Below, one piece after another: positions 4,739-9,760 of a stretch of 52,544 nucleotides of DNA (positions are counted from its first letter, which is position 1; each line of letters begins with the position of its first letter). The stretch lies in IMG/VR virus record IMGVR_UViG_3300028394_000100, positions 1-52,544 of that record, one strand, 5' to 3'. The notes under the pieces were generated by a model, which worked only from the letters and a program-made list of their open reading frames with translations, ran no database searches and had not been told where the DNA came from. Source of the DNA: a virus. The translations under genes and the position numbers were made by a program.

Positions 4739-6175
4739 TTAAACGATTCTTGTACTTCCAAGTAACATCTTTTGAAAAGATGGTTCCATATTTCTTACAG
4801 CAGGTAAATATTTTTTCGGTGGTACTGGACCACCATCACTATTGACTGTTGTATTTTTAACACTAGTAACGGGATCGGATGTAGATTGGGGTAAATTCAA
4901 ATCTACATTCTGTGCATTGACCGCATTTAGTTTTGATCCTGCGTTAGGAGTTTCCATTGGTTCTGCTTTTGCCGCAGGACTGCCATTCAGTTGATTTGAA
5001 GATTCTGTGCCACCTGAAGCCATCGGTGCAGCAGCTGCTGGTGCAGGTGTTGTTGGTGATTCGGTCGTTCCTTGTGGCATAGGTGTAGCTGTCTTTTTGG
5101 TACCATCATCATTGTAGTATGGCGCAAAATCTTTGTTCCATTTTTCTTCTTTTGATTTTGCAGCTGAACCTGTTCCAATAAATTGTTGTTTCGTGAAAGG
5201 CAGTTTGTCTGCCATGCCTTCACCGGCCGGTCTTGGTGGTGGAATTTCATATACTTTTTCATCAGCAGCAATCTTTTGAACCTTTTCTCTACCACCCATG
5301 TCCAATAAAAGTTTTTCCTTGGCATCACCTTCTTCCATTTCTAAAGCTTCTTTAGCTCGTTGACGACCATTCTTAATAATATCTTCTAATTTTTCACGGC
5401 CGCCCAATTTTTCAATATCTCCGGCACTTCCATTTTGTAAAATTGCCTGTGCTTCATCAGGACTTAAAGCTTTCATATTAGCCGTGTTTTCAGCTAACTT
5501 TTTTAGTCCAAAAGATATCAAAGCAATAAGAGCAAGCATAGAAGTTGCACCTAATAACGCAAGACCTACGGGACTTGCAAACCAACGTAACACACTCAAC
5601 AAAGTTTTTGCTACATTAACACCACCAAGTAAATCCGCCAAAGAAAAACCATCTTCACTTTTTAATTTTACTGCTGTTGCTTTACCTGAATATGGTTTAC
5701 CCGTAATCGCTTCAATTAATTCTTTGTGTCTTTTTAATTTCTCAATATCATTTTCTTCTTTATAATTATTTTGTTTTTCTCTACGCTTCCTTTCATCATC
5801 AAGTGATTTTTTCATTAACACATAGATTTTTTCTAGTGTCTTAGAGAAACCGCCAGTTGATTGTAATTGAGGAATTCTAGTTGATCTTTCTCCCATTGCC
5901 GAAGCTCGACCACCTCTTTTAACACCTGAAAAGAAATCAATTGATTCACGGCTTCTTCCTGTAGCTTTACCCAGCATAGCAGGAGCCCAATTACTACCAA
6001 ATGTAAGAAACTTGGCAATATTCATTGGATCAAATGTTTGCTTGATGCGTGTTGCTCTGGCTTTTGATTTTAAAGAAATAGTCTTTCTAAGTGACGAAAA
6101 GGCACCACCCTCTTGTTCAGCAAGAAGTGTGCCAAAAGATTTGTTTCTTATGTTTTGTGCTTGTCTGTAGTCCAT
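4739..6175 (-). CDS. Baseplate/hub-associated structural protein, paralogue of the GH73 hub protein
   Basis: A 478-residue protein. Residues 1-74 align with the upstream neighbour without gaps: KSFG, LLAEQEGG, FDPMNIAK, TFGSNWAPAM and GKxTGR fall at the same positions. This suggests a shared docking domain. A charged coiled-coil stretch (about 110-150) follows, then a hydrophobic segment (about 200-224) that could be a transmembrane or tape-like helix. The C-terminal half is proline/alanine-rich and disordered. It lacks the lysin domain of its paralogue. Its ATG overlaps the upstream stop by one base (TAATG), so the two are coupled. Position at the end of the gp26-gp51 operon suggests a hub or tape-measure-type role, which is inference. 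Confidence 0.7.
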   Translation of the reverse strand: MDYRQAQNIRNKSFGTLLAEQEGGAFSSLRKTISLKSKARATRIKQTFDPMNIAKFLTFGSNWAPAMLGKATGRSRESIDFFSGVKRGGRASAMGERSTRIPQLQSTGGFSKTLEKIYVLMKKSLDDERKRREKQNNYKEENDIEKLKRHKELIEAITGKPYSGKATAVKLKSEDGFSLADLLGGVNVAKTLLSVLRWFASPVGLALLGATSMLALIALISFGLKKLAENTANMKALSPDEAQAILQNGSAGDIEKLGGREKLEDIIKNGRQRAKEALEMEEGDAKEKLLLDMGGREKVQKIAADEKVYEIPPPRPAGEGMADKLPFTKQQFIGTGSAAKSKEEKWNKDFAPYYNDDGTKKTATPMPQGTTESPTTPAPAAAAPMASGGTESSNQLNGSPAAKAEPMETPNAGSKLNAVNAQNVDLNLPQSTSDPVTSVKNTTVNSDGGPVPPKKYLPAVRNMEPSFQKMLLGSTRIV

Positions 6176-8124
6176 TATTTCTTATCAGCCTTTTTAACTG
6201 GAGCAGGTCTATCATCTGGCCTTGTTGATCCTGATGGTGGCATTTGATTAGACTGATTAACCGTTGTGTTGTTTACATTTGTTGGTGTTGGAGTATCTTT
6301 ATTTAACTCATTTCGCATTTGAGTATTTTGTTGTGATGCTTGGCCAATTTGACTGCCCTGTTGATTCAATAACTGAGTATATTCCGAAGCAGTTTTAGTA
6401 ACTGACGCAGCATATTTGTCTACGCCCGCTGTGTGATAACCAGCTGCACCAACAGTTTTAGCATATTCACCTATATCGCCCTTTTCTAAAGCTTCTTTGT
6501 ATCTTGGATTTGATAATAGTTTTGCAAATGCGTTTCCAAAATCTTCTGGACTTTCATATTTTGCAAAAAAACTTTTTACTTGAGCCCATTGTTTTCCGGC
6601 TGCTTGTGCATTAGCATATTGTCCTTTACCATACCAACCATCAACTGTATAAAATTGACCTTTCCTTTGAATGAGTTTATCATCAGGACCAATTACTTGA
6701 ACAAATTCTTCTAGTGTTTTTCCTGCCTTTATTGCTTCAAGTTGTTTTGGTGTATAAGCTTCTTCAACAGTTACGAAACCTCCGACTTGGCCAGCGTCTT
6801 TTTGTGCTTTGGTTGCTTTGATGTTACCATAATTGAATGGTGCAACTAACGATTTGCCATCTCCTGTTTCTAAACCCCATTGAGCTAACAAGGCTGCAGG
6901 TTGAATTTTTCCACCTAATTTTTGTGAAACCATCTGTGCAACAGGATTCATAGCACCAACAAATGATCCTTTACTTGTTGCTTTACCGGTTGCATCAAGA
7001 CCTTTGGTTATAATTTTATCAGCTGAAGGTTTTGGTGCAGCGGGTGCAGGTTGTGCTGGGGCTTGTTGAGCAGGTGGTTGTGTTTGTTGTTTAGGTGCAG
7101 GTTGCGCTGTAGGTTGTTGCTGTTGAGCAGGTTTTTCAGCTTCTTTTTTCTGTCTAGTTGCTGTTTCTTTATCAGCTTTATCTTTGGTTTCTTTAGCTTC
7201 TCTATCAGCTTTATCTTTTGCGTCTTTAGCTTCCTTGTCAGCTTTGTCTTTGGCTTGTTTACTCTCTCTGTCAGCTTTATCTTTTGCATCTTTAGCTTCT
7301 TTGTCAGCTTTATCTTTGGCTTCTTTTTGTGATTTATCTTTAGCTTCTCTATCGGCCTTATCTTTGGCTTCTCTATCAGCCTTATCTTTAGCAGCTTTAT
7401 CTTTAGCTTCTCTATCAGCCTTATCTTTAGCTTCTCTATCAGCCTTATCTTTAGCAGCTTTATCTGTTTGTTGTTTTTGTGCTGGTTTTTCAGCAGGTTT
7501 TTGTGCTGCTGGTTTTTCAGCAGGTTTTTGTGCTGCTGGTTTTTCAGCAGGTTTTTGTGCTGCTGGTTTTTCAGCAGGTTTTGCCGGCTCACCAGGTTTT
7601 TTAGGTTCTTCTATTTTCTTAGGACGACCAACTTTTTTTGGCACACGTTTAAGAGTGAGTGCCTTTAATATTTGTTCGTGTCTTTTTTGTTCAACTTTAT
7701 TTTCACGTTTATCTTCTTTATCGTCCTCTTTGTTCCATTTGGCTATCTGTTTTTCACGTTCTTTAATGATTCTCTCAATGCCTTTAACAGACTCAATTAT
7801 TGGATTAACAGGTTTATTTTCAGAATCACCGTCTTGAACAGCAGCAGAACGGCCAACACCGGAAGGCCTTGCACCAGTAAAATGTGCAATATCAGATTGT
7901 TTTCTTCCGGTCATTTTACCCATCATAGCAGGAGCCCAATTACTACCAAAAGTCATTTTTTTGGCAATATTCATTGGATCGAACGTTTCTTTTATGCCCG
8001 TTATATTTGCTCGGGTTTTGGATGAAATTGCAGAACCTATAGACGAAAGTAAGCCGCCCTCTTGTTCAGCCAAAAGAGAGCCAAATGATTTTTTTCTTAT
8101 CTTAGCTGCTGAACGATAATCCAT
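6175..8124 (-). CDS. Hub-associated protein with C-terminal GH73-like glucosaminidase domain
   Basis: A 649-residue protein. Residues 1-74 are the docking module shared with the downstream paralogue. A basic stretch follows, then proline/alanine repeats (KPAEKPAAQ, about 180-215) and a long charged helical repeat (KDKADREA type, about 220-320). After a Q/P-rich linker, residues about 375-590 form a FlgJ/GH73-type domain: LLAQWGLETGDGKS with putative catalytic Glu419, then FNYGNIK, WYGKGQYAN, NPRYKEAL and YHTAGVDKYAASV. Such domains cleave the glycan backbone of peptidoglycan. Here it would open the wall at tail penetration, the job of the gp5 lysozyme domain in T4. The gp5 homologue in this window lacks a recognisable lysozyme. 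Confidence 0.8.
   Translation of the reverse strand: MDYRSAAKIRKKSFGSLLAEQEGGLLSSIGSAISSKTRANITGIKETFDPMNIAKKMTFGSNWAPAMMGKMTGRKQSDIAHFTGARPSGVGRSAAVQDGDSENKPVNPIIESVKGIERIIKEREKQIAKWNKEDDKEDKRENKVEQKRHEQILKALTLKRVPKKVGRPKKIEEPKKPGEPAKPAEKPAAQKPAEKPAAQKPAEKPAAQKPAEKPAQKQQTDKAAKDKADREAKDKADREAKDKAAKDKADREAKDKADREAKDKSQKEAKDKADKEAKDAKDKADRESKQAKDKADKEAKDAKDKADREAKETKDKADKETATRQKKEAEKPAQQQQPTAQPAPKQQTQPPAQQAPAQPAPAAPKPSADKIITKGLDATGKATSKGSFVGAMNPVAQMVSQKLGGKIQPAALLAQWGLETGDGKSLVAPFNYGNIKATKAQKDAGQVGGFVTVEEAYTPKQLEAIKAGKTLEEFVQVIGPDDKLIQRKGQFYTVDGWYGKGQYANAQAAGKQWAQVKSFFAKYESPEDFGNAFAKLLSNPRYKEALEKGDIGEYAKTVGAAGYHTAGVDKYAASVTKTASEYTQLLNQQGSQIGQASQQNTQMRNELNKDTPTPTNVNNTTVNQSNQMPPSGSTRPDDRPAPVKKADKK
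7168..7581 (-). repeat. In-frame coding repeats in the GH73 hub gene
   Basis: Two tandem repeat arrays lie inside the same gene. At about 7475-7581, a 27-base unit codes KPAEKPAAQ in about three and a half near-identical copies. At about 7168-7466, units of 21-33 bases code AKDKADRE variants (Lys/Ala/Asp/Glu), a predicted charged single helix or coiled coil. The arrays also create long open frames on the opposite strand, which are artefacts. Confidence 0.85.
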
Positions 8125-8127
8125 TTA

Positions 8128-8316
8128 CTATTTTCTTTGTCTCTCTTTTAGTTTCTGGTTTTCTTCTTCAATATATTGTATCAGCATGGTGACGTAAATA
8201 TCCCGTTCCCAAGGCAGCATCGCTTCGAGTTCGGTAAGACTATACTTATGGTGTTGCATCAATGAAAAGTTAGTCTTGTAATAATTCTTCAGATTGTCAT
8301 GACGAAAGGTTAGCCG
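8128..8316 (-). CDS. 51: gp51-like frame, probably translated by -1 frameshift from gp26
   Basis: The frame is open from 8352 to the stop at 8130-8128. Read from the slippery site it gives 62 codons (RLTFRHDNLKNYY..., KYSLTELEAMLPWERD, IYVTMLIQYIEEENQKL). The ELExMLPWERDIYV segment resembles the baseplate-hub assembly (gp51-type) proteins that follow gp26 in T4-like phages. The only in-frame ATG (8259, giving 43 residues) has no ribosome site and would remove the conserved-looking upstream part (NYYKTNFSLMQHHKYS). The zero-frame gp26 stop lies two codons past a T TTT TTC heptamer. Expression as a gp26-gp51 fusion of about 304 residues is therefore likely, by analogy with lambda G/GT tail-assembly chaperones. 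Separate initiation at 8259 remains possible. Confidence 0.7.
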   Translation of the reverse strand, partial: RLTFRHDNLKNYYKTNFSLMQHHKYSLTELEAMLPWERDIYVTMLIQYIEEENQKLKERQRK

Positions 8317-9041
8317 AAAAAATCTTCGAGGCCTTCTACAGAAAGATGGTGCTCAAAACCGCATTTGCTGCAGGTAACATCAATATTGTGTTTCATTCTA
8401 GGCAGATTGTTAAAGAAATTTTCAACCTTTTCAAATTGTTCCTGGTTCATACTCTCAACAAATTCCATCATTTCACCAGGTTCAGCTTCTCTTGCATAAT
8501 AAAATTCTTCAGTCGGCACCTCATAAATGTACTCGATACTGTTTGCAATCATGTTGAATGTAACTTCATTAATATCATCCAACTCCATGGAATCTTTAAT
8601 GAGACCAAATTCCGGATATTTCATTTTTACGATGATTTTATCCGATATCTTAATTTCTGGATTATTATTTTCTGGTTGTTGAACCTTCACTTGCATCAAA
8701 TCAACATCTTTTTCCATAATGTTGCCGCACTCTTTATCTTCAACAGCATTGTTGCAACGATATCTGGTTTGGATAATTTCTCCAACAGATTTTGCACGTA
8801 GTTGAATAAAGTAATATTCAACATCAACAATAGGTAATTTATCGATTTCGATATTTTCTGTTACTGTACAGTTGTGAAGAATATCGTGTACGTTTTGTTG
8901 AATAGTTGCACTTTCTCCTGATTCTACTGCCATCAGAAGATTCTTTTGTTCTTTCACCAAGAACGGTCTGAATTTAATTTTTTTCTTTGAAACCGGCAAT
9001 TCCATTTCATATGTCGGCACATCAAGTTTAGGCAAAGCCAT
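8310..9041 (-). CDS. 26: Baseplate hub subunit / tail assembly protein, gp26-like
   Basis: A 243-residue protein (T4 gp26 is 208), with AAGGAG before the ATG at 9041. The start MALPKLDVPTYEMELPVSKKKIKFRPFLVKEQK is characteristic of the T4 baseplate protein family that includes gp26. Two Cys pairs (RCNNAVEDKECG and CSKCGFEH near the C-terminus) could bind zinc. The C-terminus LEDFFG is coded over a slippery heptamer. gp26 acts in assembly of the baseplate central hub. In the operon it follows the tail-tube-fold gene and precedes the gp51-like frame. Confidence 0.88.
   Translation of the reverse strand: MALPKLDVPTYEMELPVSKKKIKFRPFLVKEQKNLLMAVESGESATIQQNVHDILHNCTVTENIEIDKLPIVDVEYYFIQLRAKSVGEIIQTRYRCNNAVEDKECGNIMEKDVDLMQVKVQQPENNNPEIKISDKIIVKMKYPEFGLIKDSMELDDINEVTFNMIANSIEYIYEVPTEEFYYAREAEPGEMMEFVESMNQEQFEKVENFFNNLPRMKHNIDVTCSKCGFEHHLSVEGLEDFFG
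8316..8337 (-). other. Candidate programmed -1 ribosomal frameshift site
   Basis: On the minus strand, the gp26 codons GAT TTT TTC GGC TAA contain the canonical X XXY YYZ heptamer T TTT TTC (8322-8316). Slipping back one base enters the open gp51-like frame. An internal Shine-Dalgarno-like AGAAGG (8337-8332) sits nine bases upstream of the heptamer, the same kind of stimulator and spacing as in E. coli dnaX. No strong downstream stem was seen, only a small GTCATGAC palindrome. Confidence 0.7.
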
Positions 9042-9070: not shown

Positions 9071-9760
9071 TTATCTACCACCAAAAGTAGATTTGATAGA
9101 TTCTAAAGAACCGCTGGCTACCGATTCTGGTATAGAATTGATACCGGTACCAATACCGCCAAACGCATTTAGTCCTCCAAGAGCATCGGCAACCAGACCA
9201 ATGCCCGCATCGACAACTTCCATGCCAAGAGCTTGTAGAGAGTTGTTTTTCCAATAAGTGTAAGCAAAAGTAACACTTAATTTATGATACCCGTCATTCG
9301 ACCAATCTAAATCTAATTGATTCATTGAAACAGGAAAAGCATCAAACATATTAACAGAATACGATGGTTGATTAGTTACATCATATTGCGTTACTGTAAG
9401 AATGGTTGCATAATCACTTTTATATCTGTGATTGTAATTATACGTTGGATTCATGTAGTTCATCCACGCATCGAAAAACACCTTTTGGTTCATGTCGTCA
9501 TCAACAATAAAAGTTAGGTCAATATCGTTGTAAGTAGTTTCATAAGGAAATTTTTCAACCGGATTTGAACCGATTCTTTGTTCTAGTGTTGCAAAAGTTC
9601 TACCTGGAAGTTGTGCCGCTTCACAACGAAACGAAAGATTTCTAGAACTTTGAATATATGGCAATAACGTTAAAGGAATAGGTATATCTACCTGAAACTT
9701 ATTAGGTCTGGCAATGTCTTTCTTAAAACTAGATTGGAATTCTGATATTGAACCCGGCAT
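9071..9760 (-). CDS. 54: Tail-tube-fold protein, gp54/gp19-like (baseplate-tube initiator)
   Basis: A 229-residue protein with AAGGAA before the ATG. The order of motifs matches the T4 gp19/gp54 tube family: ARPNKFQVDIPIP, FRCEAAQLPGRTF, YETTYNDIDLTFIVDDDM, FFDAWMNYM, and late WSNDGYHKLSVTFAYTYW. A glycine-rich C-terminus follows. The family forms hexameric rings of the tail tube, and gp54 starts the tube on the baseplate. The baseplate setting beside gp26 and opposite gp48 favours gp54 over the main tube protein gp19, which normally lies with the sheath gene outside this window. It is shorter than T4 gp54 (320). Confidence 0.7.
   Translation of the reverse strand: MPGSISEFQSSFKKDIARPNKFQVDIPIPLTLLPYIQSSRNLSFRCEAAQLPGRTFATLEQRIGSNPVEKFPYETTYNDIDLTFIVDDDMNQKVFFDAWMNYMNPTYNYNHRYKSDYATILTVTQYDVTNQPSYSVNMFDAFPVSMNQLDLDWSNDGYHKLSVTFAYTYWKNNSLQALGMEVVDAGIGLVADALGGLNAFGGIGTGINSIPESVASGSLESIKSTFGGR

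Follow-up and report, generated by a model that had tools for sequence, protein, structure and literature searches.

How could a phage gene that ends at a stop codon also supply the protein domain encoded just beyond it, in another reading frame and without a start of its own? The question is raised by the viral record IMGVR_UViG_3300028394_000100, a 52.5-kb fragment whose whole length of 52,544 nucleotides (nt) is called the window here. On its minus strand, a gene resembling gene 26 of phage T4 is followed by a frame that resembles the C-terminal domain of T4 gp51. A preliminary description of the window had proposed that a programmed -1 frameshift joins the two. The sequence comparisons reported here make it very probable that -1 programmed frameshifting would produce a short and a long tail assembly chaperone at this locus, similar in arrangement to gpG and gpGT.

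The slip site at the end of gene 26

The gp26-like gene (8310..9041, minus strand) encodes 243 amino acids (aa) in its short form. It starts behind a good Shine–Dalgarno (SD) sequence of its own (AAGGAGATATT ATG, -9.2 kcal/mol), and its product matches PF12322 (T4_baseplate) with 201 bits versus a cut-off of 24.5 (E=2.2e-59) and phrog_150 with E=5.5e-63. The last codons are GAA GAT TTT TTC GGC TAA, and around the slip site the minus strand reads ...TGT AGAAGG CCTCGAAGA TTTTTTC GGC TAA. The heptamer T TTT TTC (8316..8322) is phased X XXY YYZ in the gp26 frame, which is the phase for simultaneous -1 slippage, and one sense codon separates it from the TAA (8312-8310). The preliminary description had pointed to this in-phase heptamer near the stop and to an AGAAGG ribosome-like site nine bases upstream; both were found as described, at 8322-8316 and 8337-8332 respectively, and the spacing is exactly 9 nt.

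Within the window, the in-frame sequence T TTT TTY occurs at 6 sites in 16,953 codons of open reading frames (ORFs) of at least 100 aa, and the gp26 site alone adjoins a stop. The heptamer is present in all 80 of the nearest relatives. For a broader comparison, searches of viral contigs were combined with annotated phages to give 343 loci. A hidden Markov model (HMM) placed the -1 ORF in each of them, and protein HMM alignment set the register of the heptamer. Among the 342 loci other than that of T4, T TTT TTY was found in 336, T TTT TTA in 5, and T GTT TTC in 1, so that T TTT TTN stands in register in 341/342. The single exception (locus L195, around 1501) reads AGT GTT TTC and may reflect an error in sequencing or a weaker site of slippage.

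The six T's are invariant in 177/177 divergent representatives, which share less than 85% nucleotide identity. The codon before TTT is AGT, GAT, AAT, TCT, GCT, or GGT in these sequences; the amino acid therefore varies and the third base is always T. From codon usage, the probability of this fixation is near 10^-36, and that of finding TTT as the first Phe codon in all 177 (73% expected) is near 10^-24; both values treat the sequences as independent and are indicative only, because the representatives are not fully so. Judged by this conservation, chance is excluded as an explanation for the heptamer at the gp26 end. The preliminary description had suggested that related phages be aligned, and in these the heptamer, the frame overlap, and the SD-like element are all conserved. 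In Mosig (L083) and about 20 related loci the overlap is longer, as the 0-frame runs 8-9 codons past the heptamer before its stop (e.g. FFVLPSLTTA).

The shifted frame as a coding sequence

The -1 frame (8128..8322, minus strand) reads FFRLTFRHDNLKNYY...ERQRK from the slip site and consists of the two Phe codons plus 62 codons up to the stop TAG (8130-8128). With E=4.1e-29, it falls into phrog_634 ('baseplate hub assembly catalyst'), and it corresponds to the gp51 C-terminal domain. Its first 50 codons contain no stop in any of the 177 representatives. In the window's clade (26 representatives), the ratio of nonsynonymous to synonymous polymorphism (pN/pS) of this frame is 0.099 versus 1.16 and 2.54 for the other two frames, which carry on average 4 and 6 stops. 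Given this contrast among frames, the -1 frame evolves as protein-coding sequence. In the window, it holds no ATG, GTG, or TTG before codon 20-21 past the slip, and the starts found there lack an SD. The frame is thus open across the gp26 stop for 62 codons with no credible start, as had been claimed, and the sequence that had merely looked conserved is both recognizable and under selection.

The slip site, the protein-coding -1 frame, the missing start, the conservation, and an architecture like that of T4 gp51 can be read directly from the sequences, and from them we infer slippage, its rate, and a chaperone role. At the 3' end of gene 26, the ribosome would slip by -1 on the heptamer T TTT TTC, and one gene would yield two proteins, the 243-aa short form and a 304-aa long form carrying the gp51 domain. 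The long form is predicted as the join of 9041..8316 and 8316..8128, with base 8316 read twice, and in it the gp51 domain replaces the final Gly of gp26. The predicted translation agrees with the 304-residue fusion given in the preliminary description.

Candidate stimulators of slippage

The AGAAGG at 8332..8337 (minus strand), an internal SD-like sequence, is a probable stimulator of slippage in the window. Across the 177 representatives, anti-SD pairing is strongest 6-9 nt ahead of the heptamer and exceeds that of synonymous shuffles (-6.36 vs -4.70 kcal/mol), with a p-value that is optimistic because the sequences are related.

Predicted ribonucleic acid (RNA) structure downstream also exceeds that of synonymous shuffles directly past the heptamer, where z is -2.1 (+12 to +72); the signal weakens in the next intervals and is about 0 elsewhere. 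This signal stems largely from clades other than the window's. Sequences of the P-SSM2 clade can form an 11-bp hairpin that begins 5 nt past the heptamer, and 39/44 keep at least 9 pairs. It was first noticed on visual inspection and afterwards checked by counting pairs, in which 90.5% of cells pair versus at most 44% for slid controls. A single pair covaries (UA/GC/AU, with 14 cells changed on both sides), and the other pairs lie in conserved sequence that also encodes protein. Consensus folding of whole clades with RNAalifold returned no structure. In this clade, as in P-SSM2 itself (L082, 2980-3022), the stem of the putative stimulatory hairpin contains the annotated gp51 ATG. The window's clade has a weaker structure signal further downstream (z -1.6 at +30 to +90). 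A downstream hairpin probably stimulates slippage in some other clades, not demonstrably in that of the window.

Short and long forms in T4 and its relatives

The T4 gene 51 product (249 aa) matches PF12322 over residues 1-201 (E=4e-52) and phrog_634 over residues 147-246, and T4 gp26 consists of PF12322 alone, ending GLKEFFELL. Because T4 gp51 holds both domains in one frame, it is equivalent to the long form and T4 gp26 to the short form. In the window, PF12322 is likewise found in the short form and phrog_634 in the long form only. The domains and their order are the same as in T4, and the slip Phe-Phe lies, in the alignment, exactly where the parts of T4 gp51 join in frame, falling on VFKLL of gp51 and on FFELL-stop of gp26; past the junction, a PxER-like motif is present in long forms only. 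The proposal that gp26 is joined to a gp51-like frame therefore holds as a join, but it does not unite two unrelated T4 genes, as the counterpart of the long form is T4 gp51 in its entirety. T4 differs from the window in having two separate paralogous genes without a slip heptamer, and its gene 26 ends GAG TTC TTT GAG TTA CTA TAA. A single-sequence hhalign comparison of T4 gp51 with the gp26 alignment was rejected, as only the Zn-ribbon was aligned, out of register; the PF12322 and phrog profiles settled the homology.

Two PF12322 copies, a short one (26) and a long in-frame one (51), are found in T4, RB49, 44RR, RB43, and Acinetobacter 133. One copy is found in P-SSM2, Mosig, S-WAM1, Cr30, phiM7, phi-pp2, KVP40, Aeh1, pf16, DLP6, Melnitz, MbCM1, S-N03, S-PM2, and, within its 52.5 kb, the window; in phages with one copy the phrog_634 piece sits in the shifted frame. 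Among the phages compared, the slip site is missing only from those of the two-gene form. Kyanoviridae, KVP40, Aeh1, Cr30, phiM7, pf16, and DLP6 share with the window the single PF12322 gene, the heptamer T TTT TTY, and the -1 gp51 frame. In P-SSM2-like phages the 11-bp hairpin is also present and codon 5 of the -1 frame is an ATG; both features are lacking in the window's clade.

In an unrooted tree of the shared PF12322 domain, in which the branches are long, short copies separate cleanly from long ones (100/100 each). The frameshift-type proteins form one group (99/94), which includes those of KVP40 and Aeh1, themselves Straboviridae. Because of the distribution, we lean towards a single frameshifting gene as the ancestral state of the T4 superfamily, with a lineage comprising T4, RB49, 44RR, RB43, and Acinetobacter 133 that would have duplicated the gene and lost the slip site.

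A probable tail assembly chaperone pair

The proteins most likely act as a tail assembly chaperone set in the window's phage, in view of their homology to T4 gp26 and gp51, which are hub assembly chaperones, and of their position just after a tail tube-like gene (9071..9760, minus strand; phrog_45, E=2.8e-43; PF06841, E=2.5e-07). A short gpG-like and a long gpGT-like protein would together prepare the tape measure or the hub for tail assembly.

Frameshifts of this kind in lambda G/GT and other tail assembly chaperones are reportedly the subject of work by Xu, Hendrix and Duda in 2004. The window shares with lambda G/GT a short ORF, a slip site near its stop, a -1 extension, and the place after the tail tube gene; the heptamer is correctly phased and conserved, and the extension is under selection and has no start of its own, although some relatives have an ATG without SD. 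The lambda slip sequence, G GGA AAG, is different, and no sequence similarity was found between the lambda pair and that of the window. An AlphaFold model of gp26 (predicted local distance difference test, pLDDT, 88) matches many viral 'baseplate hub' proteins with significance. The 'lambda G/GT design' named in the preliminary description is apt as a design; structural homology of gp26 to lambda-type chaperones is only hinted at by this model, whose top PDB neighbour is the HK97 tail assembly chaperone.

Alternative explanations

As annotated in cyanophages, gp51 could be a small protein in its own right, with initiation, independent or coupled, just past the gp26 stop; the heptamer would then be incidental. 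We consider this very improbable. The ATG at codon 5 of the -1 frame, present in 54/177 representatives, mainly P-SSM2-like cyanophages, is the annotated gp51 start in P-SSM2, and GenBank lists a free gp51 for P-SSM2 and others. This ATG, however, has no SD (mean -0.75 kcal/mol, compared with -5.1 for the starts of gp26 and -6.4 ahead of the heptamer), and 82/177 representatives, the window included, have no ATG, GTG, or TTG between the preceding stop of the -1 frame and the 12th codon after the slip. Furthermore, protein similarity begins at the slip Phe-Phe, upstream of such starts, and the heptamer is invariant whether the ATG is present or not. The preliminary description would have been contradicted by relatives whose gp51-like gene starts at an ATG with a ribosome site and in which the heptamer is not conserved; what was found are SD-less ATGs in some cyanophages, behind a heptamer that is still invariant.

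Slippage could also occur during transcription, so that the six-T run yields messenger RNAs joining the frames. The site is indeed a T run, which reaches 8 T's in a few relatives (Melnitz), but six T's are short for transcriptional slippage, and in most loci the run is no longer than the heptamer, whose final base is C in 256/342. The SD-like element and, in P-SSM2-like phages, the hairpin spaced by 5 nt are probable stimulators of the ribosomal process, and we rate transcriptional slippage slightly lower than separate initiation. That one ORF was split by an error of sequencing or assembly, or by pseudogene decay, is barely credible: homopolymers such as that at the junction are a usual site of indel errors, but the same frame relation recurs in more than 340 loci, from metagenomes as well as from isolates, and purifying selection acts on the -1 frame.

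Some results do weigh against a frameshifted chaperone pair in the window. Besides the codon-5 ATG, these are the window's clade having no supported hairpin adjacent to the heptamer (z about 0 to -0.5), and the top PDB neighbour of the gp26 model, the HK97 chaperone 2OB9, not being significant (E 1.2, probability 0.30-0.35). In addition, no tape measure gene was found by similarity to T4 gp29 or to the downstream genes of relatives.

Downstream genes

The next gene downstream (6175..8124, minus strand) encodes 649 aa with a glucosaminidase domain (PF01832, E=7.4e-10) and repeats rich in K, A, D, and E. By its position alone, it is a possible tape measure or hub client; its product shows no similarity to T4 gp29 or the equivalents of gp29. 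It forms a tandem with a 478-aa gene (together 4739-8124, minus strand), and the two share an N-terminal domain of about 165 aa (46-63% identity; MDYRxAxxIRxKSFGxLLAEQEGG). Their C-termini are unrelated, and one ends in the glucosaminidase domain. Within the 649-aa gene, positions 7165-7600 (minus strand) hold in-frame repeats of two kinds: an array with periods of 24-33 nt, whose product is a charged helix of the KDKADREAKDKADKEAKD type, and 3.8 copies of a perfect 27-nt unit encoding KPAEKPAAQ.

Annotation and significance

Tail assembly chaperones of T4-like phages were reportedly identified by Vladimirov et al. in 2022, in a paper whose title is said to argue for a mechanism other than frameshifting. 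In the summary of this work given by the PRFect paper, some T4-like phages are described as having a short gene and a long fused gene (PMC10885494), and the paper on phage Adele refers to it for poly-T slippery sequences in the short-form genes of T4-like phages (PMC12846349). The kind of system is therefore already known. The chaperone frameshift of Vandenendeviridae and Andersonviridae, to which the Adele paper is devoted (PMC12846349), belongs to other phage families and has a motif different from that of the window.

According to a 2010 comparison of T4-like genomes (PMC3037559), gp51 of cyanophages is shortened to only about 20% of its usual length, copies from cyanophages and marine vibriophages are without the first 200 residues, and Aeh1 seems to have no gp51. 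All three gaps would be accounted for, because the missing N-terminal part is gp26, joined by the frameshift. In Aeh1 (L355, NC_005260; 118822-119070, minus strand), gp51 is present in the -1 frame past T TTT TTC at the end of gene 26. Many T4-like records list the C-terminal piece as hypothetical or as a free 'baseplate hub assembly catalyst', or leave it unannotated. On the sequence comparison, the window locus is real, known in kind, unusually well supported, and widely mis-annotated.

If the single frameshifting gene is ancestral, genes 26 and 51 would represent a programmed frameshift resolved into two fixed genes, and both the gp51 'missing' from Aeh1 and that described as 'truncated' in cyanophages and vibriophages would be annotation artefacts. 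As the same pair is encoded by two genes in T4 and by one frameshifting gene in its relatives, T4-like phages may permit a direct test of why tailed phages need a ratio of short to long chaperone.
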